DNA of 28,535 nucleotides from Mycobacterium sp. (GTDB lineage: Bacteria > Actinomycetota > Actinomycetes > Mycobacteriales > Mycobacteriaceae), in assembly GCA_023264755.1 (NCBI GenBank), contig JAHFVB010000001.1:1-28535 (forward strand), read 5' to 3'. Below are positions 10,116-28,535 of this stretch, piece after piece; position 1 is the stretch's first letter, and each line of letters begins with the position of its first letter. The notes beneath the pieces are model-generated. The model searched no databases and was not told the DNA's origin. It saw only the letters and a program-made list of their open reading frames with translations. The position numbers were made by a program, and so were the translations under genes.

Positions 10116-10250
10116 GGTTGGGCGCACTGCATCTGGGCTCGCGAGTCGAACTACCGACGGGTATTGCGACGTGGCACCTTTCGGCGTCCGACGCCACTCG
10201 CCGGTACTGCGATCCCGACCCTCAATCCGCCACTGGGCGCGCGCCTGAGC

Positions 10251-12185: not shown

Positions 12186-12253
12186 GTTGGGTGCCCGCGG
12201 CGGGTGCTTGGACCGGCTTTGGCGACTCTCAGCATCATCGTGGGTTGGACGAC

Positions 12254-12259
12254 CATAAT
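12254..12259 (+). promoter_or_regulatory. Possible -10 box for a leaderless transcript of the AhpD-like gene
   Basis: CATAAT lies 7 bases before the ATG at 12267. In mycobacteria a -10 at this distance places transcription start on the A of the ATG. No good -35 is seen, and no ribosome-binding site precedes this ATG, which fits a leaderless message. Confidence 0.3.
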
Positions 12260-12266
12260 CGGCCAG

Positions 12267-13091: not shown

Positions 13092-13115
13092 GGGCGCCTC
13101 CAGTCGCCACGTCGG

Positions 13116-13121
13116 TAACAT
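13116..13121 (+). promoter_or_regulatory. Possible -10 box for leaderless pknF-like transcript
   Basis: TAACAT lies 7 bases upstream of ATG 13129, the spacing expected if transcription starts at the ATG. The competing ATG 13120 would overlap this box. Confidence 0.35.
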
Positions 13122-13128
13122 GCCCCGC

Positions 13129-14487
13129 ATGTCACTAGCGGTCGGCCAGGTGTTCGCCGGCTACACCATCGTCCGGCAGCTTGGAGCGGGTGCGATGGGC
13201 GAGGTCTACCTGGCCGAGCACCCCCGGCTACCGCGCCGCGACGCCATCAAGGTGTTGGCGCCGCAGGTGTCGACCGATTCGGAGTACCGCGAACGGTTCA
13301 ACCGCGAAGCCCAAAACGCCGCCACCCTGTCCCATCCGAACATCGTCACCCTCTACGACCGCGGCGAGTTCGAGGACCAGCTGTGGTTGTCGATGGACTA
13401 CGTCGAAGGCACCGACGCGTCGCGGCTGCTGATGGACAAGTACCGCAAGGGCCTGCCGCCCGACGAGGTGGTCCGGATCGTGGCCGCGGTGGCCGATGCG
13501 CTCGACTACGCGCACCAGCGCGGCCTGCTGCACCGCGACGTCAAACCCGCCAACATCCTGCTGGCCAAACTCGACTCCGGGGGCTGGCGCGCCCTGCTGG
13601 CCGACTTCGGCATCGCGCGCCGCGTCGACGACTCCACTCGCTTGACCCAGAGCAACATCGCCGTCGGCACCGTCGCCTACGCGGCCCCCGAACAGTTGAT
13701 GGGGCTGCCGCTCGATGGCCGTGCTGATCAATACTCGCTAGCAGCAACGGCATTCGAGTTGTTGACCGGGTCGCATCTGTACCGGGATCGCAATCCGGCC
13801 GTCGTCATCAGTCAGCACGTGACCGCACCGCCGCCGCCGATCGCCGAACGCAAGCCCGAGCTCTCGGGGCTGGGCCCGGTGCTGTCCAAGGCGCTGGCGA
13901 AGTCACCCGACGATCGCTATGCCTCGTGCACCGACTTCGCCACCGCGCTCGCCCGCCACCTGGACGGCGTCGCCGACGAACTCGGCGTCAACGACGCCAC
14001 CTTGGCCGCCGGCTCCTACGCCGCCAACCACCACGCGAAGAGGGCAAAGCGCAAGGTCCTGTCGTGGCGCATCCCGGCGGCGGCCGCGCTTGCGTTGGTC
14101 ATCGTCGGGGGAGCGGTGGCGGCGTTCTTCCTGACCCGTCCTCACGGACAGGTCGCGCCATCCCACCCGGCGGCGGCGCCCACCGCGGCCGGCCCGGCGG
14201 TGCCAGTGGTGCTGGTCGGCGCCGACTGTGCCGTGCTCGGGGCCGCCGGAGTGAGCGAATCGGGCCAGGGCGCGTACTGCGCGCGACTGCCGGCGACCGG
14301 CGACATGATGTGGTCCCTGGTGCCGGGCACGGAGGTGCCGTCGCCGACGGCCACCGCCGGTCCCACTGACACCCAGTACCCCGCGGGCATCGAGCAGCAG
14401 GTCGACGTCTGCGTGCAGCAGACTGGTCAGACGCGCCTTCGGTGCCGCGAGGACGTGCGGCGGGGCAATCTGAGCGGGCCGGCCTGA
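13129..14487 (+). CDS. pknF: PknF-like transmembrane serine/threonine protein kinase
   Basis: A 452-residue Hanks-type kinase. Catalytic elements are all present: glycine loop G-x-G-x2-G at 19-24 (LGAGAMGEVYLAEHPRLPR), Lys41, HRDVKPAN at 135-142, DFG at 159-161 and APEQL near 186-190. The activation loop between them contains several Thr/Ser. A juxtamembrane linker ends in KRAKRKV, followed by a single membrane helix at about 315-336. The extracellular part of about 115 residues has four cysteines and ends CVQQTGQTRLRCREDVRR, which closely resembles the remembered C terminus of M. tuberculosis PknF. That similarity is the basis for the symbol. The start is ATG 13129 or 13120; I prefer 13129 because of the upstream TAACAT. 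PknF acts in cell division and glucose transport in M. tuberculosis, and the role here is not shown by its neighbours. Confidence 0.92.
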   Translation: MSLAVGQVFAGYTIVRQLGAGAMGEVYLAEHPRLPRRDAIKVLAPQVSTDSEYRERFNREAQNAATLSHPNIVTLYDRGEFEDQLWLSMDYVEGTDASRLLMDKYRKGLPPDEVVRIVAAVADALDYAHQRGLLHRDVKPANILLAKLDSGGWRALLADFGIARRVDDSTRLTQSNIAVGTVAYAAPEQLMGLPLDGRADQYSLAATAFELLTGSHLYRDRNPAVVISQHVTAPPPPIAERKPELSGLGPVLSKALAKSPDDRYASCTDFATALARHLDGVADELGVNDATLAAGSYAANHHAKRAKRKVLSWRIPAAAALALVIVGGAVAAFFLTRPHGQVAPSHPAAAPTAAGPAVPVVLVGADCAVLGAAGVSESGQGAYCARLPATGDMMWSLVPGTEVPSPTATAGPTDTQYPAGIEQQVDVCVQQTGQTRLRCREDVRRGNLSGPA

Positions 14488-14515
14488 TTCCGGGGTGTCC
14501 CGCTTCGGAGTCTCA

Positions 14516-14545
14516 TTGACCTCACCGGCCGCACTGGCGTAGGAC
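14516..14545 (+). promoter_or_regulatory. Possible tRNA promoter
   Basis: TTGACC (14516-14521) is followed after 18 bases by TAGGAC (14540-14545), about 36 bases before the tRNA. The -35 is good; the -10 lacks the final T of TANNNT. Confidence 0.35.
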
Positions 14546-14581
14546 GGGACGTGCGACCATGGTTGCCGCGCAATGCGCGAT

Positions 14582-14655
14582 GGGGCGGTAGCTCAGTCGG
14601 TTAGAGCCGCGGACTCATAATCCGTTGGTCCTGGGTTCAAGTCCCAGTCGCCCTA
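14582..14655 (+). tRNA. tRNA with anticodon CAT (elongator Met, or Ile2 if lysidine-modified)
   Basis: A complete cloverleaf of 74 bases. The acceptor strand is GGGGCGG paired with TCGCCCT, the D-arm is GCTC/GAGC, the anticodon stem GCGGA/TCCGT holds loop CTCATAA, and the T-arm is CTGGG-TTCAAGT-CCCAG. It is not an initiator, since the anticodon stem lacks the three G-C pairs. Met and Ile2 cannot be separated safely by eye. The acceptor stem has G-U pairs at both ends (1:72 and 7:66). No CCA is encoded, since the following bases are CGT. Both oddities could result from insertion of the element that begins here. Confidence 0.93.
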
Positions 14656-14691
14656 CGTCAGAGGCTGTTTTTCAAGATCAGTCTCGCCGAG

Positions 14692-14713
14692 TCATCGTTT
14701 ATTCATCGTTTAT
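14692..14713. repeat. Tandem 11-bp direct repeat near the left end of the element
   Basis: TCATCGTTTAT occurs twice with no gap (14692-14702 and 14703-14713). On the minus strand the second unit supplies the last codons and stop of the AbiEii gene. Position about 40 bp inside the presumed left end makes arm-type integrase binding sites possible, but simple duplication is equally possible. Confidence 0.6.
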
Positions 14714-15463
14714 AGGCGTGACAGCCGCGCACCAGGCCTTCCGCACCGCATCGAGAGCCTGTCGCGCAGAGATCGTGATGCGGGTCTGCCCGGCCAGCTG
14801 GGCCTGCCACACGGCGTCGGTCGGCGCGGAGGTGAACAGTCGCGACGCCGGCGGATGATTGGTGGGCCCATAGCGGCGGTAGAGGTGCGCGGCTATCCGG
14901 TCGATTGCGCCCAGCTCGCTCAACGCCCACAGGTCCCAGAGATCGCGAGCACCTTTGCGGTCGGCCCACGTCGACGTCTTCGACGCGGCAAACGCGGGCA
15001 GTGTCGGAACGAGCAGCTCGGCCGCAGGGGCGTCGGCGTAGCGCTGAACGATCGTCCGTCGCTCGGACGGCCAGACCACTCGGTCCCGAGCGGAGAGCAA
15101 TTGGATGCGCACGCCCAGCCCACTCGGTGATCGCAGCACGGCGGGGAGGGTGCTCGCAATGCTGCCCAGCGCTGGTTCGAGGGTGAGCCGTCCGTGCGAC
15201 CGCAATAGTGCGCGAGGTAGCGCTGCATCGAGGGCTGCGGCTACGGACTTGCGGTCGTCGATGGCGATCAAGTCGATGTCCTCGCTGAGCCGTCCGGTGG
15301 GTAAATGGGTGCGCGCCAATGCCGTGCCGCCGATGAATTGGACCTGGTCTCCGACGGTGGTACCGAGAAACGCCAGTACGTGTGAGATGAGGTGGTCGCG
15401 CTCGACCTGCGCGGTGGAAACACCGAATTGCGCTGCAATAGCCTCTCGTTCATCGTCGTTCAC
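14699..15463 (-). CDS. AbiEii/AbiGii-type nucleotidyltransferase toxin
   Basis: A 254-residue nucleotidyltransferase of the AbiEii family, the toxin of type IV toxin-antitoxin systems that block phage growth. The polymerase-beta-like active site is GGTALARTHL (45-54) followed by LSEDIDLIAID (59-69), giving the GG and D-x-D elements. The downstream basic motif ADRKGARDLWDLWAL is also typical. Relatives such as MenT of M. tuberculosis add nucleotides to tRNA acceptor ends; whether this one does is unknown. GTG at 15463 overlaps the antitoxin stop as GTGA, so translation should be coupled. It is the gene nearest the element's left end, with its stop inside a tandem repeat. All expected motif residues are intact, so it should be active. 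Confidence 0.93.
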   Translation of the reverse strand: MNDDEREAIAAQFGVSTAQVERDHLISHVLAFLGTTVGDQVQFIGGTALARTHLPTGRLSEDIDLIAIDDRKSVAAALDAALPRALLRSHGRLTLEPALGSIASTLPAVLRSPSGLGVRIQLLSARDRVVWPSERRTIVQRYADAPAAELLVPTLPAFAASKTSTWADRKGARDLWDLWALSELGAIDRIAAHLYRRYGPTNHPPASRLFTSAPTDAVWQAQLAGQTRITISARQALDAVRKAWCAAVTPINDE

Positions 15464-16101
15464 GTATCAGCCCAACCCTCGGCACGCCGCAGTGACGCCA
15501 CCCGCAGCTGCTCGAAAGCAAGCGTTGAGAGTCGTTGTCGGTCGCTGCGCGCTAAGAGGGCGATGACTGCCGATCGAATGTCGACGTCAACCATGCCTAG
15601 TTCTGGCCGGTGAGCAAGATCGAGGACGGTCTGTTCGGGTGTCGTCACCAACGCGGGGCCCAAGGCTGTTTCGATGCGTTCAGCGTCCAGGCGGTCGGTG
15701 CGGCGTTTGACGAACCGCACGACGGCCGGTCGGTCCGATAGCTCTATCTCACGGTGCTGTCGAGGCACCGCGATCGTCGCCGTCGCCAGGGCGCGGGGAA
15801 TCGCCCCGTGCAGCCGTGCTGCGCTCGGTCCCATCACCACGACGTCGTCTACCCCGTAGATTGCAGAGGCGATGCCCGCAGCGGCTGCCTCCAAGCCTGG
15901 CGTCCAACGTCGACCGATCATGTCCTGCGGGATGACCACGTAGTAACCGTCGGCGACGCGGTGGAGGAGTCCGCGTTCAGTGAGCCGGGCGAACTCTGCC
16001 CGCGGATGTGCGTAGATGTCGCCTGCGTCGCGTGGCCGGATGGTCTTCATCGGTGCCTGCGCGAGCATAGGTGGCATCGGAGTGCTGCGGCTGCGCATCA
16101 T
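15460..16101 (-). CDS. AbiEi-type antitoxin / transcriptional regulator
   Basis: A 213-residue antitoxin paired with the AbiEii toxin. The N-terminal part RPRDAGDIYAHPRAEFARLT with ERGLLHRVADGYYVVIP is the winged-helix region typical of AbiEi proteins (promoter reads, then 'ADGYYVV'). The middle ASAIYGVDDVVVMGPSAARL and the C-terminal ALVTTPEQTVLDLAHRPELG match the family's other conserved stretches. ATG 16101 is preceded by AAGGAGGAG, the best ribosome-binding site in the window; ATG 16098 is the alternative. A longer frame to 16164 is rejected. AbiEi antitoxins act without binding the toxin directly and repress their own promoter. An inverted repeat lies upstream (see 16116-16152). Confidence 0.92.
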   Translation of the reverse strand: MMRSRSTPMPPMLAQAPMKTIRPRDAGDIYAHPRAEFARLTERGLLHRVADGYYVVIPQDMIGRRWTPGLEAAAAGIASAIYGVDDVVVMGPSAARLHGAIPRALATATIAVPRQHREIELSDRPAVVRFVKRRTDRLDAERIETALGPALVTTPEQTVLDLAHRPELGMVDVDIRSAVIALLARSDRQRLSTLAFEQLRVASLRRAEGWADT

Positions 16102-16115
16102 TACTCCTCCTTGAG

Positions 16116-16152
16116 TATGCAAATCGCATGTCTGTAACCTACGAAATGCATA
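16116..16152 (-). promoter_or_regulatory. Possible operator of the abiE operon
   Basis: TATGCA (16116-16121) and TGCATA (16147-16152) form a perfect inverted repeat 25 bases apart. The left copy is also part of a smaller dyad ATGC-5 nt-GCAT (16117-16129 region). Both lie within 55 bases upstream of the antitoxin ATG, where AbiEi autoregulation sites are known in other bacteria. A -10-like CATACT is on the minus strand here. Confidence 0.4.
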
Positions 16153-16194
16153 GTCGAAGCGCAAGGATGGTGATTGAGGCTAACCACGTCGGGC

Positions 16195-17361
16195 TTAAGG
16201 ATCGCTGACCAACCTGTCGAGGAGGTCGGCCACTTGGGTGTGGACCCGACCTCGGCTCATGTACTTGTCCTGGGTCATCGAGACGTTCGTATGACCAAGG
16301 TGGTCGGCTCCGATTCGCGCGGAAAGGCCCTCGTCGTCGATTAAGGTTGCGAGTGATTTCCTGAAACTGTGTGTGGTGACGTCCGGCACGCCGAGGTCGT
16401 CGCGCACCTGCCGCCATTGCTTGTTGAAGTTGTTTGGGTCCCGAAACGTACCTGCCGTCGAGGAGAAAATCATCGTCTGTTGGCCGAGGAACGGCAGCTG
16501 GCGCCGTACCTTCAAGACGTCGACGGCGAAGCGGGGCAGCGGCAGAGTGCGCAAACCTGCTTCGCTCTTGGCGGTGTCCTGACGCTGCAGACCTTGGCCC
16601 GCAGCGCGTCCCACCTTCCCGGTCACCGTCAGAGTACTGGCGTCCGGGTTGAAGTCGGTCCACAGCAGGCCCAGAAGCTCGGATTCTCGTAGACCAGTTG
16701 CGATCAACAGGGTGATCGGATCGATTAGGTCACGGTGTCGGCACGCCTCGGAGACCGGCAGTTTGTCTAGGAGGCTGCGGAGCTGTACGGCGGTCAGCGC
16801 CGTGGCACCCTTCGGCCGGCTTGTCGATTTGATCGATTGCACGTCGCGCACCGGGTTACTGCCGAGCACGTTCGCCATTACCGCCAAGTGGAGTGCGCCG
16901 TGCAGGATCGTCTTGGACTGCCGCGCCGTCACCGGTCCGTGCGCAGCTCGCATCGACCGCAGCGCAGCATCGATTCGGGCGGGTGTCGCCTCACCGATAC
17001 GCACGCCACCAATGAACTTCTGCAGCTTGGCAGCTGCGTAGCCGTAGGTGTCGAGGGTTCGCGCGGAACGCCCGTCCTCAGCGAGACGCTTGAGGTGCTC
17101 TTCAACGAGCGCCGACAGCAGGGTCGCCAAGCCGATCGCGTCTTGAACTGGCAGCCGTCTCTCGACGAGTGCTTCCTTGAGTGCGTCCACCGCGAGCTTG
17201 CCGTATTGGTCGTAGTCGTCTGGCGGCCCGACACGTTGCACGATACGGGTGACACCGTCGCGGTCTCGGTAGCGGCATTTAGCCAGCCATGCCCCGTTGC
17301 CGAGCTTGATGCGGGTGATCTTCCCGTGGTCGCCGATGCGCAGCGACGGTCTGCCTGCCAC
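16195..17361 (-). CDS. int: Tyrosine site-specific integrase
   Basis: A 388-residue phage/ICE-type tyrosine recombinase. The N terminus (about 1-60) is an arm-binding-like beta region with KITRIKLGNGAWLAKCRYRD. A SAM-like core-binding domain spans about 75-170, with RSARTLDTYGYAAAKLQKFI. The catalytic domain follows: Arg225 (ATGLRESELLGLLW), Lys near 265, His331-x2-Arg334 (HSFRKSLATL), His357 (ADHLGHTNVSM) and nucleophile Tyr367 (QDKYMSRG). All are intact, so the enzyme should work. GTG 17361 is preceded by GGGGTGA. It probably inserted this element into the tRNA at 14582-14655, although two toxin-antitoxin genes lie between them. The excisionase-like gene is 79 bases upstream in the same direction. 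Confidence 0.95.
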   Translation of the reverse strand: MAGRPSLRIGDHGKITRIKLGNGAWLAKCRYRDRDGVTRIVQRVGPPDDYDQYGKLAVDALKEALVERRLPVQDAIGLATLLSALVEEHLKRLAEDGRSARTLDTYGYAAAKLQKFIGGVRIGEATPARIDAALRSMRAAHGPVTARQSKTILHGALHLAVMANVLGSNPVRDVQSIKSTSRPKGATALTAVQLRSLLDKLPVSEACRHRDLIDPITLLIATGLRESELLGLLWTDFNPDASTLTVTGKVGRAAGQGLQRQDTAKSEAGLRTLPLPRFAVDVLKVRRQLPFLGQQTMIFSSTAGTFRDPNNFNKQWRQVRDDLGVPDVTTHSFRKSLATLIDDEGLSARIGADHLGHTNVSMTQDKYMSRGRVHTQVADLLDRLVSDP

Positions 17362-17440
17362 GAGTCACCCCCGCTGTCGCCTGACAGCGCCCATCGTGCT
17401 GTCGACGTTGAGCGTCCGAGCAATCATCAACCCATGATAT

Positions 17441-17647
17441 TCAAGCGGTATGACGCTTGTCCTGGGCGAATTGCTTCCGTTCCCAGGTAATTACATCGCT
17501 CAACAAGTAGCGCACGTGCCGGCCAAACTTGGCATAGCGCGGGCCGGTTCCCTTGGAGGCCCATTCAGCCGGCGTCTTCACCGGTAGCCCGTATCGGTCG
17601 GCGAGCTCCTGGCGGGTCAACCACTTGTCATCTGTGTTCTCGTCCAT
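17441..17647 (-). CDS. Small excisionase-like helix-turn-helix protein
   Basis: A 68-residue protein of the MerR-like/AlpA 'helix-turn-helix domain' class. KWLTRQELADRYGLPVKTPA is the helix-turn-helix, followed by EWASKGTGPRYAKFGRHVRY, the wing, and VITWERKQF. Such proteins next to a tyrosine integrase usually serve as the recombination directionality factor or as a regulator of excision. ATG 17647 has GAGGAAG about 9 bases upstream. The motif EWASKGTGPRYAKFGRHVRY is very common in actinobacterial integrative elements. It is transcribed toward the integrase and divergently from the relaxase. Confidence 0.9.
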   Translation of the reverse strand: MDENTDDKWLTRQELADRYGLPVKTPAEWASKGTGPRYAKFGRHVRYLLSDVITWERKQFAQDKRHTA

Positions 17648-18051
17648 TGGCGGTCACTTCCTCATCGGTCCGCCCCAGTTCGGGTGTTCCAACTGTAAGT
17701 CGGCAAACAGGCATCATCCCCGCTATTTTGGCTAGGCCGAATCGCTCGTTCAGTTTGTCGGCGCGGCGAAAACACGCTCGCTCTGAATGAGCCATGTCAA
17801 CCATTCTCATCCACACCCCATGCCTTTTCATCACACTCGTCTCAGTCACTGCGTCATTCCCACTGACTCCCAAACCCGTTCACTACAAGGCTAATCCGTT
17901 CACCTCACTCCAAACGCCACCCTCAAGAAACTGCAGTGGCACATTTGCACAGCGTGCGATACTGGTCGTGGTTGCGTATGGGGTGTAACCGAAAGTGACG
18001 GCGGGGCAGTCGTTCTGACTTTGGGGTTGAATAACAGGGTTGGTGGCTGCG
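17648..18051. other. Non-coding region between excisionase and relaxase genes; candidate oriT and divergent promoters
   Basis: About 400 bases without a convincing gene, clearly less GC-rich than the relaxase. It contains a direct repeat CCGTTCAC at 17876-17883 and 17896-17903, exactly 20 bp apart (about two helix turns). It also contains an imperfect inverted repeat GGTTGC-9 nt-GTAACC (17970-17990). MobF relaxases usually nick at an oriT close to their own gene, which makes this the place to look. No nic site can be named from sequence alone. Confidence 0.4.
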
Positions 18052-20850
18052 GTGTTGACGATCTCCAAGTTGAAGCGGTGGTCGATCGCCTACTACCTCG
18101 ACACCGCCCACTCAGCTCAGCGCGCCACCGCCGACTTCCAACGCGCCGGGGGCGGGTTGGGGGAGTACTACTCCGAACACGACACCCGCGCCCCGGTCTG
18201 GCTGTGCGCCGGTGACACTCATACCGCGGCGTCATTGGTCGGGCTTTCGGACACCCAGCGCGCGGGTGGTGAGGCCGACGCTGGGGTTGTGGCGCGCTGG
18301 CTCGATGACGGGGTCACCCCGAGCGGTGCGCACGGCCGGGCTCTGGGTGCGCAAGGGGTGCACGGTTATGACCTGACGTTCGCCGCGCCCAAGAGCGTGT
18401 CGGTGATCCGGGCGCTGAAGGCCGATGACGTGGTGTCGAAGGGGATCGCCGATGCGCACACCACCGCTTTGGTTGAGGCGATGGAGTACCTGGCCGCGCA
18501 CGCCGGCTATACCCGGGTGCACAACCCGGTCACTGAGCAGAAGGACATGGTGCACCTTCCCGGTTTGGTGGCGGTGGCCTATCAGCACGAGACGTCGCGG
18601 TGCGGGGATCCGCATCTGCACACCCACGTCATCGTGGCCAACCGGCAAGCCCGCGCTGACGGGGTGCTGGTGTCGGTCGACGGGACCTCGTTGTTTCACG
18701 AAGCCAAGGCTGCCGGGGTGATCTATCAGGCCACCCTGCGCCGAGAACTGCACCAGTCGCTCGGCTTCGAGTGGGAACCAGTGGACCCGCACACCGGGAT
18801 GGCCGAACTCGCTGGCATCGACCGCGCTTCCATCACCGCCTGGTCGCGCCGCTCGAGCCAGCTGCGGGACTGGGCGGCGCGCCACCTGCGCGTCCAGGAC
18901 GCGCCTTTGAGCGCAGCGCAGCTCGCGGCCGCGCAGAAGGCCACCCGGCCGACCAAACCCGAAGAGCTGGCGTGGCCGGAGCTGTTGCAGCAGTGGCGGG
19001 CCGATGCGCGGGGGGTGCGCCTGGACCGCGCGTCCTTCGACCGGGCGCGCGCAGCGCGTCGCGCCGCGGCAAACACCCCGTTCGACCGGGCGCGCCTGGC
19101 CGATGCCGCCGAGCGGATCGACAATGCGGCGTTCACCCGGGCGGACCTGGTGGAGATCATCGGCGCACAACTCCCCGTCGATGGGGACCAGGCGCCGCGG
19201 GAGGCGGTGGAGGCCGCGGTCGACGAGCTCGGCATGCGCCTCACCGCTCCACGGCAGAAGCACCAGCGCGAGGGTCATGAGCGGTTCACCCTGAGTCGGA
19301 TCCTGGCCGAGGAGGTCGCGGTGCTCGACATGGCCGACGCCCGTGACGACCGCACACAGCTGTGGGTGACGGAGGAAGACACCCGTGGCCTGTCCCCGGA
19401 TCAGCGGGCGGCGGTGGAGGCGATTGGTCGGTCGCCGTGGTTGGTGCAGCCGTTGTCGGCGCCGGCGGGTGCGGGCAAGACGACCTCGCTGCGCGCGCTG
19501 CGCGCCGCCGCGCACCACCGTTACGGCGCCCGCGTGGTGGTGCTTGCCCCGACCGGGCGGGCCGTCGACGTCGCCGTCCGCGAAGGCGCCGGCGACGACG
19601 GTTTCACCATCGCCAAGGCCCTGCAAGATCTCCGCAGCGGCTCCTTGACGTTGGACCGTGGGACGCTGGTGGTGGTCGACGAGGCCGGAATGGTCGGCAC
19701 CGACGACCTCCGGCAGCTCCTCACCGCCACCACCGAGGCTGGGGTGAAGACCGTGCTCGTCGGGGATCCCCACCAGCTCGCCCCGGTCAAGGCCCGCGGC
19801 GGGATGTTCGCCCAGCTCTGCGCGGATCTGCCCTGGACGCAACAGCTCTCGGAGGTATGGCGGATGCGCAATCCAGAGGAGCGCGCCGCCTCGCTGGTCC
19901 TACGGAATGGTGAACCGGAGGCGGTCCGCACGGCGGTCGACTGGTATCGGAACCATGACCGCCTGCGGTGCGGGGATCAGATCGCCATGGCCACCGACGC
20001 CCTGGAGGGCTACCGCAAGGATGTCGCGGTCGGCAAGGACGCACTGCTGCTCACCGACACCACCGAGATGGTCGATGCGCTCAACCGCCGCATTCACGAC
20101 GACTCCATCCCCGATGACGCCCCGGCCGTGGTCGGGGCACGTGGGCAGCGCATCGCCGCAGGGGATCTGATCTTGTCCCGCCGCAACGACCCCACCGTCG
20201 ACATTAGGCGGGCCGACGACCACGACGCATTGGCGGATCCGGTGCGCAACGGCGACCGCTGGCGCGTGGCCGCTGTCGACCCTCGCGCGAATCGGGTTGC
20301 GGCCGAACGACTGTCCGACCGCGCCGGCGCGGTGTTCGACGCCGAATACGTACTCGAACACCTCACCCTGGGCTACGCGACCACAGTGCACTCGGCGCAA
20401 GGGGTCACCGCTGACTCCACCCACACCGTGCTGGGGGATAAGACGACCCGCTCCTTGCTGTACGTCGCGATGACCCGCGGCCGAGACGCCACCACCGCCT
20501 ACCTCTACGAACGCACCATGGAAGCGGAACACGGCCCGGCTATGGACGGTGGGCCGCACGTCATGCAGCGGGGGACCGCGAGCCAGGCCGCGGAACTCGC
20601 CCACGCCATCGTCACCACTCACGACGACGTCCCCGTCACCGCCCATCAGATTGCCACCGGGGCGCCAAGGCACTTGCTACCGCAGCGGGTCGCTAGCCTC
20701 CTCGCCGAACGAGATGAAGCGGTCGACGGACGCACTGCCGCCCATACCGAATGGCGCATAGCCGTCGAGGGTCTGATCGCGGCAAAGGATCAAAGCCGCT
20801 CGACCGACCGCGCGCGCACCCGCGATGATGGCGACGATCTCGAGCTATAG
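18052..20850 (+). CDS. MobF-family conjugative relaxase-helicase (TraA/TrwC-like)
   Basis: A 932-residue relaxase fused to a helicase, which nicks oriT and unwinds the strand to be transferred. The N terminus [20 protein letters not shown] has the MobF catalytic tyrosines (Tyr14, Tyr15). The metal-binding histidines are His179 (QHETSR) and HLHTH at 188-192. The helicase half has Walker A APAGAGKT (about 470-477), Walker B VVVDEAGM, the GDPHQLAPV motif and the C-terminal TVHSAQG plus YVAMTRGR motifs of the RecD/TraI class. I take GTG 18052, since family members begin MLTISKL; TTG 18040 and GTG 18043 would add 3-4 residues. It is shorter than many MobF proteins (often over 1100), lacking a long C-terminal tail, but no motif is missing. 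Confidence 0.94.
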
Positions 20851-21043
20851 CAACTATGGGGCGACGCCGTGCCGTTGACCGACTAGCACGTGCACGTACT
20901 GGCGTCTCGGTGATGCTCAGGCTGCCAGCATCGATAAACCACTGCGATCCGCGCGGCGAGACTGATCTGGGCGATCCGTGTGACTGGCCCTGCGTTGCGT
21001 TATGACACAAGTGTCGATCACACGTGGCGCCCCGCTGTGTGGC

Positions 21044-21062
21044 AGTAGCCGGCAGGGCTACT
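21044..21062. terminator. Hairpin between convergent genes, possible bidirectional terminator
   Basis: AGTAGCC-GGCAG-GGCTACT forms a perfect 7-bp stem with a 5-base loop. It lies 194 bases after the relaxase stop and 6 bases after the stop of the convergent HEPN-type gene. There is no strong T-run. The rest of 20851-21067 shows nothing else. Confidence 0.45.
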
Positions 21063-21067
21063 TGTGT

Positions 21068-22093
21068 TCAGACCAACGGGATCCCGAAATCCGACAGTGG
21101 GTGGGTTGCTTGGAGCAGTTCCGAAGTGGTCGCCACAGCCTTCTCGGCGACGTCCTTTGGCATCTCCTTACCGCCGTGCACGGCGGCGTTCCGCGGCTCG
21201 ATCAACCTTTGCTGGAAGCGGTCGGGCAGTGCGGCGACCTTTAACTTTTTCGCGAGCTCTGTTAGAGGCCGAAGCATCTTGTATTTGTCCATCAGTGCTT
21301 CGGCCATATCGGGGTCGACGTTGGCCGCGAGGTACGCGTCGAGTCTTGCCGTGAGCGCAATTTCTGCAGCCGTTCCTGCGTCGAGAACGGCCCGACGATA
21401 TTCCTCCGTGTTAAAGAGTGATCGCGCATCCCGAAGCATCAGCCAGGGATCGGGAGGGCGCGTCGCTTCCCCCGTGAGCGACATGCACCTTTCCAGCTGT
21501 GCCCTGGTCAGTGGCTCTCCGGTGTAAGGCCGCAATTGAGGCATCCGAAGCCAAGACCCCCCTGGCTCCCGTCCGTCCTGCGGCTCAGTGATCCACATGG
21601 TCGTCTGACTGTAGGACTGACGCCGCTGTCTACCGAGTTCGATCAGATCCTGCATGCTCACCACGCCGATCCAGTCGGCCAGCAACGACCACCAGGCAGA
21701 TTGGTGTGCGACCACGTGGTCGCGAGTGGACTGGAACTCGTCATCGTCGCTTGCTGCACCTTCAATAACAAAGCGAAGTTGCTCCACTACGAAGTAGTTC
21801 GGTGGGAAGACGGCAGTGTTCCAGTCTTCAGAGGGGTTCGGGTCGCTCCAATCTTGCAAGGATCCCCGCGCGCTATCGCCTGCGTAACGGGCTTCCGCTG
21901 CATCGCTTGCGTCTTGTTCGGCCCGGGATTCGGAATAGGGCGCTATGAGGTTGTGCTGGTGCACCCCTGGATCAAACTTCGGGAGCCTCACAGTCAGCGG
22001 GAAACAGGCTATGCGTGACTCGTAGCTCTGATCCAGACACTCGGGCAGGACGAGAAATCCTGCGTCGCATGACATATCGCCTTCGATGCGCAT
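21068..22093 (-). CDS. Unknown protein with C-terminal HEPN-type motif
   Basis: A 341-residue protein whose N-terminal two thirds I do not recognise. It begins MRIEGDMSCDAGFLV and is rich in Trp and acidic residues. The last 130 residues are helical: YRRAVLDAGTAAEIALTARL, then a linker, then RLIEPRNAAVHGGKEMPKDV. R-N-A-A-V-H (Arg301 to His306) is the R-x4-H motif of HEPN domains, with the usual polar residue after Arg. HEPN proteins are frequently metal-independent RNases in toxin and anti-phage systems, and some are catalytically inactive. ATG 22093 is chosen because AGGTGA lies 5 bases upstream; GTG 22102 is the alternative. It follows the helical-repeat gene by about 240 bases on the same strand and may be a separate unit or the last gene of the cargo set. 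Confidence 0.72.
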   Translation of the reverse strand: MRIEGDMSCDAGFLVLPECLDQSYESRIACFPLTVRLPKFDPGVHQHNLIAPYSESRAEQDASDAAEARYAGDSARGSLQDWSDPNPSEDWNTAVFPPNYFVVEQLRFVIEGAASDDDEFQSTRDHVVAHQSAWWSLLADWIGVVSMQDLIELGRQRRQSYSQTTMWITEPQDGREPGGSWLRMPQLRPYTGEPLTRAQLERCMSLTGEATRPPDPWLMLRDARSLFNTEEYRRAVLDAGTAAEIALTARLDAYLAANVDPDMAEALMDKYKMLRPLTELAKKLKVAALPDRFQQRLIEPRNAAVHGGKEMPKDVAEKAVATTSELLQATHPLSDFGIPLV

Positions 22094-22102
22094 GACGGTC
22101 AC

Positions 22103-22335
22103 CTATGTGCCCTCCAACCTGTTGTCGGCGTGAGCCGCCGGCGCTGTTGCGCCCAGCGTTGCAGCTCGACGTGCCTTATTATCCGAGCGCTGCTTGAGCG
22201 GCGGGGACGGGTTGCGACCGGTGGCTATCAACCACCACGAAAATTTGGTCGGAAGCCGCACTCGCGTCATGGCCTCCCTCTGTCGTCGGCCCTTGGGAGC
22301 ACTTGGATCGCTTGCAATTGAGTGCTAAGTCGCTC
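22103..22335. other. Non-coding gap between the helical-repeat and HEPN-type genes
   Basis: No convincing gene is present. On the minus strand GATAAT (22183-22178) could be a -10 for the HEPN-type gene about 85 bases downstream. That would let it be transcribed separately. The left part is GC-rich and otherwise featureless. Confidence 0.35.
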
Positions 22336-22342
22336 TCAATTG
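22315..22342. repeat. Inverted repeat across the 3' end of the helical-repeat gene
   Basis: CAATTGAG (22315-22322) and CTCAATTG (22335-22342) are a perfect 8-bp inverted repeat with a 12-base loop, overlapping the stop codon at 22336-22338. The stem is AT-rich and lacks a T-run, so a terminator is doubtful; a protein-binding site is possible. Confidence 0.5.
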
Positions 22343-24630
22343 ACAATCTGCGCAGCGCGCTTGCGTACTCGCCAGGATGGACTGTCATTTCGCAACTGTT
22401 TGACTATTCGGTCGATCTGCGGGGCGCGCAACGCTGTGGGCCCAAGTTGCGAAAGAGTATTTAATGGCATGTAGATCCCCTCGCTCCGAAGGAATTCGGT
22501 CAGGCGCTCGATGGCCAAATCGGCGATCACGTCGTGTCGCTCGCAGATCGAACCCAAAGCACGGGTGACTGCGAACCGCACCATCGGATCCGAATCACTA
22601 CTCAGTGTGAAGATCATCGGCACCATCCAGTCCTGCAGCGACGTCGATGCGAGCATGGACAGATATCTGCCCGCTTGACGACGTCTTTGGCCATCAGGAC
22701 TCGCTGTCAGGGTTCGAAAGTGTTCAGCGGCTTGGTCGTTGGTGAGAAAGTTATAGGCGCTCGCGAAGCCAAGAGCCTCAACGAATACGGCCTCACCATA
22801 AGGCTCGGTAAACCCCCATCTGTCGGTCTCGGTGACAAGTGCTGCAAGGCGCTCCGAAAACCTCGATGCGAGTTCTGTCGACAGTGATGGCCGTTCGCTC
22901 ACAAGGACGTCGAGAGCGCGCGACTTAGAGCGTCGGGCAATGAGGGGGTCGGCTAGGAAATCGAGTAAAGCCGCCCATGCTTCGTCATCCGATGATCGAG
23001 ATAGAAGCACCGCGACGATCTCCGCCGGCTGCACAGTGCCCACCTTGTGAGTTCCGGCTGCCGCCTCTTTCGCCGCCCGCGCGAGGCCCGCTAGAGCCGC
23101 CCGCTTAGCTGACTGATGTACGTGGTCCGGCAAGGGCGTCTCGGTTCTGAGGTAGTGGTTGATGCTCTCAGCTAGCGCGCCCAAGGACGCATCGACACCT
23201 TCTATCAGCTCCGTGCTTACAGCCAATGCACTGCGGACAGCTGCCGCGGTGTCGGTCGTGCGCCCGTCAGTTTTCTGTGTCGTTGCAAGGGCAAGCCACC
23301 GCTCCTTCAGGTCGGCATCCACGTCAGCCCATTCGATGCGGCGAACGATTTTCGCAATCACAAAGTCGAAGGCCTGTTCACTAAGTCGCTCTGGGGTTGC
23401 GTATTCCAGGAGTTGTCTTGCGATCTCCCCTGCGGTCCCGGCTGCGGCTGCTAGCGCCGTGGCTGCGATCCACGCGTCTTCGTCTTTGGAGAAGTCAGCA
23501 TGCCAGTGAAGTGGCGCGGTAGTTGGACCTCCCCGACGAATCACTGACAGCACTCGAGTTAGCGCTTTAAATGACTCCGCGGGTGCCATGACCTCTGCTG
23601 CAGCCGCGAGAACAATCATCTCGCTGGTTCGAAGTGACCGATCGGAAGTTCGCATTGATTCGATGCGGCGCCCATCGGAAAGCAAGGCACTCATTGGACC
23701 GGCTACGGTCAAATCGTTCACAAGCAGCCGAAGCTCGGCGTCGGCTCCTGCCAGTCGAAGAAGCCGAAGGCCGTCATCGGCAACGGCCGCAGGCAGCGTC
23801 GGCATGAACCGAATTAGGCGCATTGCGGCGAGTTCTCGACGAGATCGATATACCTCGCGGTGCCCGAGGATCTCGAGCCGTAGGTTCTCGAAGTATTGGT
23901 CAGGGCCGTAGTCAGTCGAGATCGCGCGACTCAATTTGGTCTTGAAGGTGCTATCTAGCCATCGTCGATACTTGCCCAGTTGGTCATCTTGGAGCTCGTC
24001 GGTAACGTAACCCATGTCAAAAGAGGGCAGGCTGAGGCTGAAGCCGGCAGATGACGATTTGACGGCGCGGAGCAAGTTTTTGATCGCGGCATCGGGCGAA
24101 ACTTCGGAATTGTCCCGGAGGACAAGCTCGGGGGGCGAGCTGAATCGAACTAGCTCGCTTAGCCTCCGTACTTCGCTCAGGTTCGATTCAGTGGACTCAC
24201 CGATGTCGTTGTGGCGCAGTGCGCGCTGCTGCAGTAGCAGCATCCTGCACAGTTGGCCCGACGGGGACTGATCCTCAACGAAGTTTAGTGCAGCGTCGAG
24301 AATTTTTAAGCATTTCGATACATCATCGCTTTCGCTCAGAAGCGCGCATGCAACCAAAGTAAGTGCGGTGAGTTTCGCGAGGTCTTCGCGGGTGTCGTCG
24401 GTGGTCAGAGCTTCAACGAGTGTGTCCACGGCGGACTCGTTGCCGCCCATCGCGTCGTAAATGGCCCGAATCGCAATGTCCTCGACGGGTTCATTGAAAA
24501 TATGGTGCTGAGTCTGACCCTGCATCGCTTTGGCAAGCTCGGTAGTGGGTGCAGTTGGACCGTCCCCGGGATGCCCTCGCCGCGTGAGAAGGTCCGGTGC
24601 GATTACGGCTACGAGCCATGCAAGATTCAC
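22336..24630 (-). CDS. Large HEAT-like helical-repeat protein, function unknown
   Basis: A 764-residue protein made almost wholly of helices with no catalytic motif that I can see. The C-terminal part has HEAT/ARM-type units, for example SDPMVRFAVTRALGSICERH and SPSWRVRKRAAQIVN at the very end, and REDLAKLTALTLVACALLSE near residue 95. Alpha-solenoids of this kind bind proteins or nucleic acids and act as sensors or scaffolds in several defence systems. GTG 24630 is chosen because AGAGGA lies 8 bases upstream and because it starts one base after the hydrolase stop (TGAGGTG). A TTG at 24657 would overlap that gene. The spacing implies coupled expression in near-equal amounts with the hydrolase. 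Composition is richer in A+T than the flanking chromosome. Confidence 0.8.
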   Translation of the reverse strand: MNLAWLVAVIAPDLLTRRGHPGDGPTAPTTELAKAMQGQTQHHIFNEPVEDIAIRAIYDAMGGNESAVDTLVEALTTDDTREDLAKLTALTLVACALLSESDDVSKCLKILDAALNFVEDQSPSGQLCRMLLLQQRALRHNDIGESTESNLSEVRRLSELVRFSSPPELVLRDNSEVSPDAAIKNLLRAVKSSSAGFSLSLPSFDMGYVTDELQDDQLGKYRRWLDSTFKTKLSRAISTDYGPDQYFENLRLEILGHREVYRSRRELAAMRLIRFMPTLPAAVADDGLRLLRLAGADAELRLLVNDLTVAGPMSALLSDGRRIESMRTSDRSLRTSEMIVLAAAAEVMAPAESFKALTRVLSVIRRGGPTTAPLHWHADFSKDEDAWIAATALAAAAGTAGEIARQLLEYATPERLSEQAFDFVIAKIVRRIEWADVDADLKERWLALATTQKTDGRTTDTAAAVRSALAVSTELIEGVDASLGALAESINHYLRTETPLPDHVHQSAKRAALAGLARAAKEAAAGTHKVGTVQPAEIVAVLLSRSSDDEAWAALLDFLADPLIARRSKSRALDVLVSERPSLSTELASRFSERLAALVTETDRWGFTEPYGEAVFVEALGFASAYNFLTNDQAAEHFRTLTASPDGQRRRQAGRYLSMLASTSLQDWMVPMIFTLSSDSDPMVRFAVTRALGSICERHDVIADLAIERLTEFLRSEGIYMPLNTLSQLGPTALRAPQIDRIVKQLRNDSPSWRVRKRAAQIVN

Positions 24631-24631
24631 C

Positions 24632-26002
24632 TCAGGGGTCCTCTCGGTTGATGGCAATCTGAAGCGGGTGCTCCGCAGATGAATAGGTGTCGTCCTGAGA
24701 TAAAGTGGTGTGCTTTCTGTTTACTATTTCGGAAATGAATCCGCTGAGGCAAAGGCCTAATTGCTCGTCGCTGTCCGCGGAGCGGAAAGTCAACTGATAT
24801 GTTTGATTGTCTTGGTGTTCCATGTGAGCCAGCTCCATTAAAGCAGTCATCGATAAACTTTGATTGGGGCCCACCGAGATGGCTCTCGCATGGGAGCCTC
24901 CCTCGTCGTAGCGGCGTCGGAGTTCTTCGACTTTGCGTCTCGTCATCGGCCGACGCGCGATGAGGTCGTAAGAACGGTGCGCCGATACCAGCAGGTTCGG
25001 CTGAAACGTTGAACCTGAAACGAATCGATCTTCAACCTGTACACGTGGGGAGCCGGAGGATTGGATGATGGACTCGTAGGTCGGTCGCCAGGAGTCGTTC
25101 GCGTCGGCGTCTAGGAGGAAGTCGACGAGCACGAGGCTGTCGGGCGCGTGCGGGTGCGACGCTTGCCGCGCGTTCTCAGCGGCGTCGCGAATATCGGCTC
25201 GAAGTGATGCGATGTTGTCGACTATGTCCCTGACCCAGGTGACGACTTGGCTGTCTGGTTGTCGTGGCTTCACCACGTTCGTGTGGCCACGGTTGACCGC
25301 TGTTCGAACTTGGTCACCATCGACTACTAATGTTGCACTCGAGCGGTGGACGATCCGATCTAGTCCACCGACTATTGCCCAAAGGGGGATTTTATATTTC
25401 TGCGGGTCGATTTTGTCGCTATTCTTGGTGTCGACGTTCTCGCTAATGAATTTGCGGAGGGCTTGTTGATATCCGCTGTTTGGGGCTAGTTGATCGCTCT
25501 CACCTACAACGTCTCGGAGAACCGGGTATTCGGCAAGTCGTGAGCCGTCGAAAGGTGTGGCGATAAAGATGATGCCAGCGAGAACATCAAGAAGTCCGGG
25601 TTCTTCTTTGCGGTGAGTGACGTAGTTGCGCATCGCGTCGATCGAGATAAGTCCGCCCATGCTGTGTGCGACTATGTAGATTTCGTCGTATTGTTTTTTT
25701 GACAATTCATGAAGCCGTTCGGTAAGTATCTCGGCGACTTCGGGCACTGTTGGTCGTTGCAACCCCATGCGTCGGTGGCCGCTGAAATAGTCGAACAACG
25801 CAACGTCCATAGGTTCTCGCGACAGTTCATCAAAGACGAACCTTGGAAATTTTTTCCAAGTGGTGTACCCGTCACCTCCGAGCCCGTGAACGAAGATGAT
25901 CAAGCGTTGTGCGCGCCGATCGCCGGTGTGGCGGTGGAGGTTGAAGAACGCTTCATTGAAAGGAAATTCTTCGAAGAGTATCTGATCGCGCACGTAGACC
26001 AT
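24632..26002 (-). CDS. Alpha/beta hydrolase (lipase/SERAC1-like fold) with unknown C-terminal domain
   Basis: A 456-residue protein. Residues about 30-260 are an alpha/beta hydrolase: RLIIFVHGLGGDGYTTWKKF carries the oxyanion HG (39-40), Ser114 lies in VAHSMGGL (an A-x-S-x-G nucleophile elbow), Asp215 in GGLDRIV, and His240 in NRGHTNVV. The triad is complete. The HGLGG...TW start resembles the lipase-like domains of SERAC1 and of some bacterial defence or STAND proteins. Residues about 290-456 match nothing I recognise; they include SYDLIARRPMTRRKVEELRR and end in a cytosolic-looking tail. The ATG at 26002 shares one base with the upstream stop (TAATG), fixing the start; a frame to 26224 is an extension through that upstream gene. 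No signal peptide is seen. The substrate could be a membrane lipid, a protein or a nucleotide-linked ester. Confidence 0.85.
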   Translation of the reverse strand: MVYVRDQILFEEFPFNEAFFNLHRHTGDRRAQRLIIFVHGLGGDGYTTWKKFPRFVFDELSREPMDVALFDYFSGHRRMGLQRPTVPEVAEILTERLHELSKKQYDEIYIVAHSMGGLISIDAMRNYVTHRKEEPGLLDVLAGIIFIATPFDGSRLAEYPVLRDVVGESDQLAPNSGYQQALRKFISENVDTKNSDKIDPQKYKIPLWAIVGGLDRIVHRSSATLVVDGDQVRTAVNRGHTNVVKPRQPDSQVVTWVRDIVDNIASLRADIRDAAENARQASHPHAPDSLVLVDFLLDADANDSWRPTYESIIQSSGSPRVQVEDRFVSGSTFQPNLLVSAHRSYDLIARRPMTRRKVEELRRRYDEGGSHARAISVGPNQSLSMTALMELAHMEHQDNQTYQLTFRSADSDEQLGLCLSGFISEIVNRKHTTLSQDDTYSSAEHPLQIAINREDP

Positions 26003-26286
26003 TACCGAGCCGACCGTAATTCGACGCCGGCGTGTACCGAGATGGGACGTGTTGGCCGAGAGCTGTCGAGTCGGATGTACAGCCGGCAGGTCGGCCTGAT
26101 CACGAATCGGGCGTCCGCCGTGTCGCTTCGCCATGCGCCAGCGCTCGTTGGCATGCGCGCATCGGTCAGGCCGTAGTTCTTCGAGATGTTGACTACGTAG
26201 CCACCTGGGTGCGCCGCGAGCCAAGACAGGTAGCCGGCGTCATCGCCGCGGAGTTCGAGCGCGCGCAAAGCATCGTCCTCGACCAT
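26002..26286 (-). CDS. Small unknown protein, translationally coupled to the hydrolase
   Basis: A 94-residue protein. The N terminus GDDAGYLSWLAAHPGGYVVN resembles, from memory, a short conserved segment (YLxWLxAHPxGYVxN) seen in many actinobacterial hypothetical proteins, where it often continues into a Cys/His-containing region. Here the second half (from about residue 45) is Arg-rich with a single Cys and does not keep that pattern, so it may be truncated or frameshifted. The stop TAA shares its last base with the ATG of the hydrolase gene (TAATG). That favours real translation. ATG 26286 has a poor ribosome-binding site and lies 24 bases after the upstream gene. It may act as a partner or regulator of the hydrolase, which is a guess. 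Confidence 0.6.
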   Translation of the reverse strand: MVEDDALRALELRGDDAGYLSWLAAHPGGYVVNISKNYGLTDARMPTSAGAWRSDTADARFVIRPTCRLYIRLDSSRPTRPISVHAGVELRSAR

Positions 26287-26310: not shown

Positions 26311-28535
26311 TTAGTTTTGTCGGCGGCCGCAGCGGTTGGGACAGCCACTGCCGCGGGTGGTGCGCTTCGACACAACGGCCTCCCATTCGGTCCCGCACAT
26401 CGGACACAGCCACCACACCTTCTTGCTGCTGGCGGGCGCCACAGCATCGGGTGTGAGGTCACCGTTGCGGATGGGGTGCCATTCGGCCGCGACGTCAGGG
26501 TAACGGTCCGCAAGGGAGTTGCCGGGCTTTGGTCTACTGCGCGCCTCTACGCTGGCCTTGCGTCCGCATTCCGGGCAACCGACACCCGTTGCGCGGCTGC
26601 CGATCACCGCGTGCCAACTGTTGCCGCACACCGGGCAGGTCCACCACGCCTTTCGTCCGCTGCCGACGGTCACGTGCTCGGGGGACAGCGGGGCGTTCTT
26701 GACGTAATCCCACTCAGCGGCCAGGGTCGGCAACTCCGAGGCCAGCGATCGGGCCCGGGGTCGTCGGATTTCGTCCTCGGCCGCCGCGGCGGCCCAAGCA
26801 GCGTCGGTGGCGAGGTAGTGGTCGTGGTGTGCGGCGCGGTGACCCAGTTGATCGAGCATCGTGAGAACGGCCTTGGCGCGAACCACTTCTGAAGAGAATT
26901 TGGGAACGACGACGTCCCAAGGACCGATTGGTTGCAGCTCCTCCCGCACGCGGATGACCGTCCACCCGGCCGCGTTCAAGGCCGCCGTCTTCCGGTGGTC
27001 CTTCTCATGACCCTCGGGGGTCTTGTGAAACCTGTTGCCGTCGAACTCGATGACTACATTCCACGTAGGTGCGACCATGTCGCAGTTCAATGGTCTGCCC
27101 TTGGGCGGGCGGATGACCGTGTGCTCGACCTCGATGGGCACCCCGGCCGCTGTGAGCTCGTGGCGTAGCCGGATCTCCTCGGCGCTGGTGCCCCACAGGA
27201 TGCATTTCGGGCAGCCCCGCGCCTTGGTACGGTTGTTGATCATGGCCTGCCATTCGTGACCGCGGGCGCACAACCACCACGCCTTCCTACCGCTGTTGCC
27301 CGTGACATCGGCTGGGATAAGGTCGCCGTTGCGGGTGGGGTGCCACTGGCTGGTCAGCTCGTCGTCCTGCTCAGCCAATGACTGTCCTGAAGTTGGCTGC
27401 GCAAAAGCAACTGCTGACTGCTGGGTCGCACATGCCTTGCAACCGGAACCAACCGCGCGACTAACGATTTGGGCGTCCCACTCATTGCCGCAGTCGGGGC
27501 ACAACCACCAGGCGCGTTTGCCGCTTTTCGCGGTGACCATGGCCGGGTTGAGTTCTTGGTTGCGGGTGGGGTGCCATTGCGCGGCGAGTTCAGGCAGGCG
27601 CTCGGCCAGCGACTGGCCCGGCTTGGGTGCACCAAGCGCGGCGCCGGCGCGGCGCCGCCCGCACTTCGGGCAGCCCGAACCGCCGCGTGTCCGGCTGATG
27701 ATGATCGCCGACCATTCGTGTCCGCATGTCGGGCAGAGCCACCAGGCACGGACGTTGCTTGCCCAGCGAAAGTCGGCCGGGTGCAGTGCTCCGTTCTGGA
27801 CGGGATGCCATTGCGCTGCGACGTCGGGATAGCGTTCCGAAAGGGCGGTGCCAGGTGGGACTTTCGGGGGAGGCAGTGCCCGGTCGGAGTCTTCGAGGGG
27901 CGAGGCCTGCGGGGTCCCCGTGGGCAAATGACCGTCGCCTGTGTTGGGTCGGACGGCATGAGCACGGCGTCCTCGGCGACTGCATCCGGGGCAGCCAGCG
28001 CCGGCGGCGCGATTGCCCACCGATGCCTCCCAGTCCTTTGCGCAGTTGGCGCATCGCCACCATGCCGTCCGTTTTGCGGAGAACGCCACGTCGCTGGGTG
28101 TGAGGTCGCCGTTGTGGGTGGGATGCCATTCCGCGGCGACTGCAGGGTTGCGCTCGGCCAACGACCCGCCAGACTTCGGCTTGCGCAACGTGGCGTGCGC
28201 GCATTTGCGACACGAGCTGCCGCTGCTGCGGCTGGCGACCCAGATCTGCCACTCATGACCGCAGCGTCCGCACAGCCACCAAACCTTTTTGTTGCTGGCG
28301 TAGCCGACCGTTCCGGGAGTCAGGTTTCCGTTGCGACTGGGATGCCATTCGGCGGCGACGTCGGGGAAGCGCTCGGCCAGCGAATCACCTGGCTGGGGCA
28401 GGCTCTTCAGCCGCCCGGTTTCGCGGCGGGCACATGCTGGGCAGCCATGGCCGTGGGTGCGACTAGATACCCGCGCCTGCCAGACGTGACCACAGGCCGG
28501 GCACAGCCAGAACGCCTTCAGCTTCGCGCCGCCCG
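26311..28535 (-). CDS. Zinc-ribbon repeat protein (DUF4379-like) with inserted Vsr/DUF559-like nuclease domain; 5' end outside the window
   Basis: The frame stays open to the right edge, so at least 741 residues are present and the start is not seen; the ATG at 28188 is internal to the repeats. The unit is SLAERxPxxAAxWHP, NGxLTPxxV, then WWLCPxCGxEWxA, then R-x2-G-x-GCPxC. Eight units are seen at about 28432-28535 (partial), 28201-28383, 27982-28164, 27661-27846, 27430-27612, 27202-27381, 26566-26748 and 26314-26517. Between units six and seven (26839-27189) lies a PD-(D/E)xK-type domain: LNCDMVAP, then WNVVIEFDGNRFHK, then DHRKTAALNAAGWTVIRVRE, as in Vsr/DUF559 nucleases. Zinc-ribbon arrays likely bind nucleic acid, with the nuclease cutting it. 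This is the first visible gene of the cargo run. Unit six has C-x-R-GHEW in place of CPxCGHEW. Confidence 0.88.
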   Translation of the reverse strand, partial: GGAKLKAFWLCPACGHVWQARVSSRTHGHGCPACARRETGRLKSLPQPGDSLAERFPDVAAEWHPSRNGNLTPGTVGYASNKKVWWLCGRCGHEWQIWVASRSSGSSCRKCAHATLRKPKSGGSLAERNPAVAAEWHPTHNGDLTPSDVAFSAKRTAWWRCANCAKDWEASVGNRAAGAGCPGCSRRGRRAHAVRPNTGDGHLPTGTPQASPLEDSDRALPPPKVPPGTALSERYPDVAAQWHPVQNGALHPADFRWASNVRAWWLCPTCGHEWSAIIISRTRGGSGCPKCGRRRAGAALGAPKPGQSLAERLPELAAQWHPTRNQELNPAMVTAKSGKRAWWLCPDCGNEWDAQIVSRAVGSGCKACATQQSAVAFAQPTSGQSLAEQDDELTSQWHPTRNGDLIPADVTGNSGRKAWWLCARGHEWQAMINNRTKARGCPKCILWGTSAEEIRLRHELTAAGVPIEVEHTVIRPPKGRPLNCDMVAPTWNVVIEFDGNRFHKTPEGHEKDHRKTAALNAAGWTVIRVREELQPIGPWDVVVPKFSSEVVRAKAVLTMLDQLGHRAAHHDHYLATDAAWAAAAAEDEIRRPRARSLASELPTLAAEWDYVKNAPLSPEHVTVGSGRKAWWTCPVCGNSWHAVIGSRATGVGCPECGRKASVEARSRPKPGNSLADRYPDVAAEWHPIRNGDLTPDAVAPASSKKVWWLCPMCGTEWEAVVSKRTTRGSGCPNRCGRRQN

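Follow-up and report, generated by a model that had tools for sequence, protein, structure and literature searches.

Organization of the locus

The window analyzed here, a stretch of 28,535 nucleotides of contig JAHFVB010000001.1 from a Mycobacterium sp. (assembly GCA_023264755.1), ends within a gene that encodes an array of zinc-finger units interrupted by a nuclease domain (Table 1). This array gene is probably the cargo of an integrative, mobilizable element of about 15 kb at tRNA-Met, which extends from position 14619 of the window to position 29789 of the contig (C545). A 46-bp direct repeat spans the 3′ part of the tRNA gene and eight bases beyond, and its second copy is found beyond the window. 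In five of five genomes examined, among 60 searched, an intact tRNA-Met is directly followed by the sequence found here just past the right repeat. The same sequence (locus L067 from 3791) also follows tRNA-Thr in the same Mycobacterium genome (contig C26, end of L175), so it may be an insertion sequence or the end of one, and an empty tRNA-Met site is not claimed as proven.

Table 1. Features of the array nuclease gene and of the island that carries it
Feature	Position	Strand	Evidence
tRNA-Met (CAT), left end of island	14582..14656	+	sequence
46-bp direct repeat, left copy, likely att site	14619..14664	+	41/46 identical to C545:29744-29789
AbiEii toxin-like nucleotidyltransferase	14699..15463	-	profile scans
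AbiEi antitoxin-like	15460..16164	-	profile scans
Tyrosine integrase	16195..17361	-	Pfam
MobF/TrwC relaxase-helicase	18040..20850	+	Pfam
Island ORF without Pfam match at E 0.01	21068..22102	-	Pfam
HEAT-repeat protein	22336..24657	-	Pfam
Alpha/beta hydrolase, PGAP1-like, adjoining array gene	24632..26224	-	Pfam and profile scans
Array nuclease open frame, 740 codons in window	26311..28533	-	ORF list, Pfam
DUF4379 unit 8	26323..26490	-	PF14311 match
DUF4379 unit 7	26560..26724	-	PF14311 match
EDxHD/Vsr-like nuclease domain, residues about 447-566 of 740-aa frame	26836..27195	-	profile, model, alignment
DUF4379 unit 6	27202..27357	-	PF14311 match
DUF4379 unit 5	27424..27588	-	PF14311 match
DUF4379 unit 4	27655..27819	-	PF14311 match
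DUF4379 unit 3	27973..28137	-	PF14311 match
DUF4379 unit 2	28195..28356	-	PF14311 match
DUF4379 unit 1 (partial; model positions 21-56)	28423..28530	-	PF14311 match

The start of the array gene lies beyond the window edge, past a 10-N gap, and the contig ends at 29913. The orthologues L032 and L033 carry eight units in all, which indicates that the array ends with unit 1; the expectation of an earlier note that it would continue past the edge was not borne out, as the part of the gene found there is its start and the beginning of unit 1. Directly upstream of the array gene is a gene for a 153-aa protein, both on this contig (L067:2851-3312) and in M. hodleri (L034:5488-5949). Genes similar to it occur without an array gene in three other mycobacterial loci (L068, L071, and L074). 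On the other side, the HEAT-repeat gene overlaps the gene of the PGAP1-like hydrolase, which has a weak match to LmuA (E 5.9e-5); the two (22336-26224) could form a two-gene defence or signalling pair.

Pfam scans of nine window proteins (10164-26224) found no methyltransferase, in agreement with the earlier observation that none is adjacent, and a type II restriction-modification system was dropped as a candidate on this ground. Known anti-phage systems were also considered for the array gene and dropped, as no family of the PADLOC 2023 models matched at E 0.01.

Repeat units and nuclease domain

The whole protein matches PF14311 (DUF4379) in eight stretches (hmmscan, E 3.2e-144, 469.6 bits, cut-off 24.5). 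When the genome assembly, which is 70% complete, was searched with this profile, eight matches were obtained, all above the cut-off and all within the array gene. Between units 6 and 7 sits a match to PF04480 (DUF559; 24.6 bits, cut-off 20.6) that covers residues 485-532 and profile positions 47-91 of 109. The arrangement of six units before and two after a nuclease, which had been read from the letters, is thus confirmed by the profile positions. The name "zinc ribbon" given to the units was abandoned, as Pfam labels PF14311 "Probable Treble clef zinc finger domain" and the best solved-structure matches of a unit are trypanosomatid DUF4379 proteins. The predicted model of a unit, a beta hairpin and a helix, matches these DUF4379 structures. 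Zn_ribbon_8 also matches the protein (51.7 bits, cut-off 34.4), but DUF4379 scores far higher.

The nuclease belongs to the EDxHD/Vsr branch and has most of the active-site residues that are conserved in the family. By sequence, its nearest solved nuclease is the homing endonuclease I-Bth0305I (3r3p; profile match, E 3.5e-5), and a profile for MTES_1575 REase stayed below its cut-off (23.7 against 38.2 bits). The predicted model contains the core fold of this branch, and among the families listed its matches to I-Bth0305I, Vsr, and Bax1 are tied. The conserved residues are D485, E496, D498, H503, D512, and K515 of the 740-aa frame. E496 and D498 are those previously numbered E381 and D383 from a supposed internal ATG at 28188, where the start codon is in fact TTG. 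Among the domains of 56 relatives, which were selected by the nuclease profile, the Glu of EFDG is kept in 56 of 56, its Asp in 45, and the His in 47; among those with a letter at the respective column, the Asp of CDMV is kept in 53 of 53 and the helix-1 Glu in 37 of 38. In an alignment with 3r3p, the two proteins have the Glu in common; opposite the EFDG Asp and the His, 3r3p has Asn and Ala. Collectively, the DUF4379 units, the DUF559 match, and the Vsr/EDxHD fold support the earlier proposal of a multi-finger array with an internal PD-(D/E)xK-type nuclease. Neither of two findings that might have spoken against it, loss of the catalytic Asp and Glu in homologues or a fold foreign to the restriction-endonuclease family, was encountered.

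Distribution and mobility of the family

An internal nuclease is common in this family. Among 159 ORFs with array units, a count that is redundant because several loci repeat the window gene and in which divergent nucleases could be missed, 42 have units on both sides of a nuclease, 34 have units followed by a nuclease, one has a nuclease followed by units, and 82 have units only. The internal layout is found in Actinobacteria, Clostridia, Bacilli, a proteobacterial MAG, and virus contigs. In each of five mycobacterial orthologues the nuclease follows unit 6, with eight units in L032 and L033 and seven in frame in L035, L049, and L034. The largest array counted (L085) has eight units before the nuclease and three after it. 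Not all relatives are intact: in L034 the frame ends early, within unit 8, and the array of L183 is split into two frames.

Relatives are sparse in genome and plasmid collections alike. Matches were found in 83 of 72,556 plasmid records (22 of them reaching 80% coverage or more at a single place), 7 of 50,697 phage records (one with such coverage), and 8 of 398 actinobacterial genomes at E 1e-20 (five across most of the core, the window's own included). In viral contigs, 151 relatives were confirmed among 187 pattern-matched stretches, and 80 of the 151 were retained. Units can be numerous within a single record: a virus record of 309 kb has 29 of them, spread over at least six frames, and a Curtobacterium plasmid has 25 in five frames. 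On the Rhodococcus plasmids pBD2 and pYLL2 (L082:9523-14494 and L081), a DUF4379 gene in which one unit was found follows a large DEAD/DEAH helicase gene.

The plasmid and phage relatives share the design, mostly among unrelated neighbours. In the loci first compared, the predicted direct neighbours of mycobacterial relatives are unrelated, except for the 153-aa gene shared by the window gene and L034. The relatives show gene-sized blocks of similarity. Four Streptomyces plasmids (L060, L164, L165, and L166) share the gene at 78-92% DNA identity, with similarity setting in 36-59 bp before the start codon in five of six pairs and ending near the stop in all six, at points from 26 bp ahead of it to 59 bp past it; L060 and L164 have about 800 bp upstream in common. 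Between the window gene and L034, similarity (88.9% identity) begins in upstream DNA, of which the two share about 530 bp, and extends to a point shortly before the stop codon. Similarity is confined to the gene between L034 and L032 (87.5%) and between the window gene and L032 (87.7%), where the N gap may account for the left end. The array nuclease genes are under purifying selection, with dN/dS of 0.12-0.26 in 10 of 10 pairs.

A different picture is found at one locus of the Rhodococcus linear plasmids L061 and L062. One flank is 84.9% identical over 812 bp that extend to the gene's first codons, and the other is 92.6% identical; between them, the array proteins (L061:8847-10674 and L062:8538-10863) are 42.6% identical and have seven and nine units, respectively. 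Such divergent genes at one locus fit arms-race diversification as well as homing.

A clean empty site was sought and not found among the matches listed. The mycobacterial flanks of L034 (297 genomes) and L032 (138 genomes) were found singly and none rejoined among the matches listed; none appeared in the best 15 of 44, 68, 59, and 24 plasmid records matched by Streptomyces flanks, or in all 11 plasmid records matched by Rhodococcus flanks. The junction in pLP2 (L080) is occupied by a transposase gene. Residence in an intron, as for I-Bth0305I, was not seen: none of 32 loci had an Rfam intron that reached its gathering score. By eye, the right junctions of the Streptomyces and mycobacterial genes have no evident common target sequence, except in L164 and L165.

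Candidate DNA-damage-type promoter motifs

The LexA-independent recA-P1/PafBC motif of mycobacteria is given as tTGTCRgtg-N8-TannnT (PMC5656591), and up to 330 bp before unit 1 were scanned for it. In the first set, 6 of 33 ORFs had 11 of its 12 positions, all six of them among seven Streptomycetaceae genes; this compares with 0.03% of windows in a Markov control and 0.65% of windows drawn at random from these loci with the true sites left in. Seven added loci with eight ORFs gave at least 10 of 12 positions in six (L180, L181, L182, the first part of L183, L184, and L185). Scores were 6 for the second part of L183, 7 for L186 (Curtobacterium), and, in the first set, 8 for L057. In total, 10 of 12 streptomycete loci have an 11/12 motif upstream, with fewer independent lineages than ORFs, as L183 and L184 are closely related to the first four. 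When both strands of these 12 loci were considered, 10 of the 16 sites with at least 11 matches lay directly before the array gene. On the minus strand of three related loci, L060, L164, and L183, a second damage-type motif (11/12) occurs just before the divergent neighbour gene.

PafBC is activated by single-stranded DNA (PMC11804915), and expression of the streptomycete relatives may be raised by DNA damage or single-stranded DNA. Against a PafBC reading of the streptomycete motif stands the statement that the PafBC motif of M. smegmatis did not come up as conserved when S. venezuelae was initially searched for it (PMC9380542). For the window gene, PafBC regulation was not adopted, as no more than 8 of the 12 positions match, a score that chance often produces. 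A block resembling (T)TGTCGGA...CATGCT is conserved in the window gene, L034, L032, and L033 and less so in L049, and none was found by eye in the second mycobacterial clade (L035, L050, L076, L078, and L079). Damage induction of the window gene is no more than suggested.

Unit positions as candidate DNA readers

When the window protein was compared with that of L035 (57% identical), each of units 1-7 was most similar to the unit in the same place (7/7), and unit 8 had no counterpart. In ten mycobacterial orthologues (units 1-7, columns with entropy above 0.8), the information that unit number gives about the residue, relative to entropy, was highest at position 29 (0.97) and then at position 31 (0.89), followed by positions 51, 48, 14, 56, 62, and 27. 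Positions 29 and 31 are fixed per unit across the mycobacterial orthologues and differ between units, being G/K, A/N, S/K, A/N, K/G-or-R, N/G, and G/G in units 1-7. The two positions are also kept per unit, with one exception, in Streptomyces orthologues, where position 29 is G in four of five units. Among 503 distinct units, position 29 is G in 49%, and the most variable columns are 48, 24, 56, and 50.

Residues fixed in this way fit a modular reader without being proof of one, as orthologous units are conserved overall. In its strongest form, the idea is a possibly code-like, TALE-like array whose units would each read a short piece of DNA through a few positions and direct the EDxHD nuclease to a long site. 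Its expression would be turned on by single-stranded DNA via PafBC-type promoters upon entry of foreign DNA, and it would serve a mobile element as a weapon. Candidate positions would be 29 and 31, which flank Ser30, together with 48, 50, and 56; the array would have up to eleven units as counted, with the nuclease internal or terminal. We consider this code-like design improbable, and slightly more so because position 29 is mostly G in Streptomyces and is G in about half of all distinct units. Nucleases that recognise long sites through repeated reader units are uncommon and of practical value; if a few unit positions did carry specificity, the family would add a further natural, modular mode of DNA recognition.

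Function of the array nuclease

Judged from sequence and models, the array protein is most likely a long-site DNA endonuclease. We predict, with about an even chance of being right, that it is a free-standing, homing-endonuclease-like, site-specific enzyme carried by a mobile element. The computational basis of this prediction is the DUF4379 units, the EDxHD/Vsr nuclease, the position as cargo of a probable island, the gene-sized blocks, and purifying selection. Each treble-clef unit would grip part of a long DNA site, with positions 29 and 31 and the variable positions 48, 50, and 56 as candidate base-reading residues, and the central nuclease would cut or nick at the bound site with metal ions. 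A long and rare site would leave the carrier unharmed even with no methyltransferase. The element would profit from cuts in DNA that lacks the gene, either because the gene is copied into the break or because a competing replicon is removed. In streptomycete relatives, expression might rise in response to DNA damage or to single-stranded DNA, at the time of entry or replication of foreign DNA. Points counted against homing are the lack of an intron in 32 loci, of a clean empty site among the matches listed, and of an evident common junction target outside L164 and L165; the divergence of L061 and L062, the mitoribosomal DUF4379 relatives, and the Asp and His that face Asn and Ala in 3r3p also weigh against the preferred reading.

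Alternatively, the protein could be a defence nuclease that protects its carrier by cutting phage or plasmid DNA at long sites as it enters, without copying itself. AbiE is among the island companions and is also found near L061, L062, and L083; a type ISP methylase lies one small ORF before L036, an ISP coupler-domain match (27.9 bits, cut-off 27) lies before L055, in L064 the units-only gene is preceded by a site-specific methyltransferase, and SIR2 lies about 3.5 kb from the L049 gene. The allelic replacement at the L061/L062 locus and the damage-type promoter motifs would also suit defence. However, the lack of a PADLOC match, the absence of a named defence gene from the other neighbourhoods examined, and the occurrence of relatives on phages make this reading possible but rather unlikely.

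A role in repair, in which a damage-induced protein nicks mismatched or damaged DNA as Vsr does, would agree with the tie of the Vsr and Bax1 folds with I-Bth0305I and with the recA-P1-type motifs of the streptomycete relatives, but it is very unlikely given the sparse, plasmid-borne distribution and the frozen unit-specific residues, which suggest sequence reading. No more can be said for an RNA-targeting nuclease whose units bind structured RNA for the domain to cleave. The solved DUF4379 proteins are indeed trypanosomatid mitoribosomal proteins or assembly factors, yet the nuclease branch is one of DNA endonucleases (I-Bth0305I and Vsr) and PMC12350094 interprets a sister group as homing enzymes that act on DNA, so we give this reading a slim chance. 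That the gene is a decayed or neutral remnant is hardly credible: broken relatives such as L034 and L183 do exist, but the low dN/dS in every pair, the key residues largely kept, and the open frame in the window argue for function.

For genome annotation, a function open to testing would become available for the proteins of large actinobacterial plasmids that databases list as "zinc-ribbon domain-containing protein". If the damage-type promoters are active, a mobile-element nuclease would be linked to single-stranded DNA sensing in actinobacteria.

Comparison with known systems

Several known proteins share one part of the array nuclease. Vsr, the very-short-patch repair endonuclease, acts on T:G mismatches together with Dcm and has no array. 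Bax1, an archaeal nuclease solved in complex with the XPB helicase, is comparable in its nuclease fold. I-Bth0305I is intron-encoded, and its likeness is drawn from the catalytic domain alone, as in the solved entry. The trypanosomatid proteins mt-SAF33 and mS66 are ribosome-associated; they align in the unit stretches alone and gave no nuclease match, and a search of the literature on them returned nothing relevant among the matches listed. In the literature searched, DUF4379 is mentioned in three papers and PF14311 in none. The surveyed portions of the literature contain no report of the internal-nuclease layout, of the promoter motif before these genes, or of the unit positions.

The closest published relatives are a group described in 2025, in which CapR/DUF4379-like repeats are combined with EDxHD/Vsr-like endonucleases in group II and group I introns of phages (PMC12350094). 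Both designs join zinc-finger-like repeats of about 60 aa to an EDxHD/Vsr-like domain in mobile DNA, and the thousands of UniProt hits that this source reports could include the array family. The published proteins have three to five repeats and a C-terminal nuclease and reside inside introns, whereas the array gene encodes eight repeats with the nuclease between units 6 and 7 and is free-standing on a probable integrative element. The array gene encodes a free-standing, multi-unit DUF4379-EDxHD nuclease of mobile elements, most likely an endonuclease for long DNA sites, whose benefit may be homing or defence.
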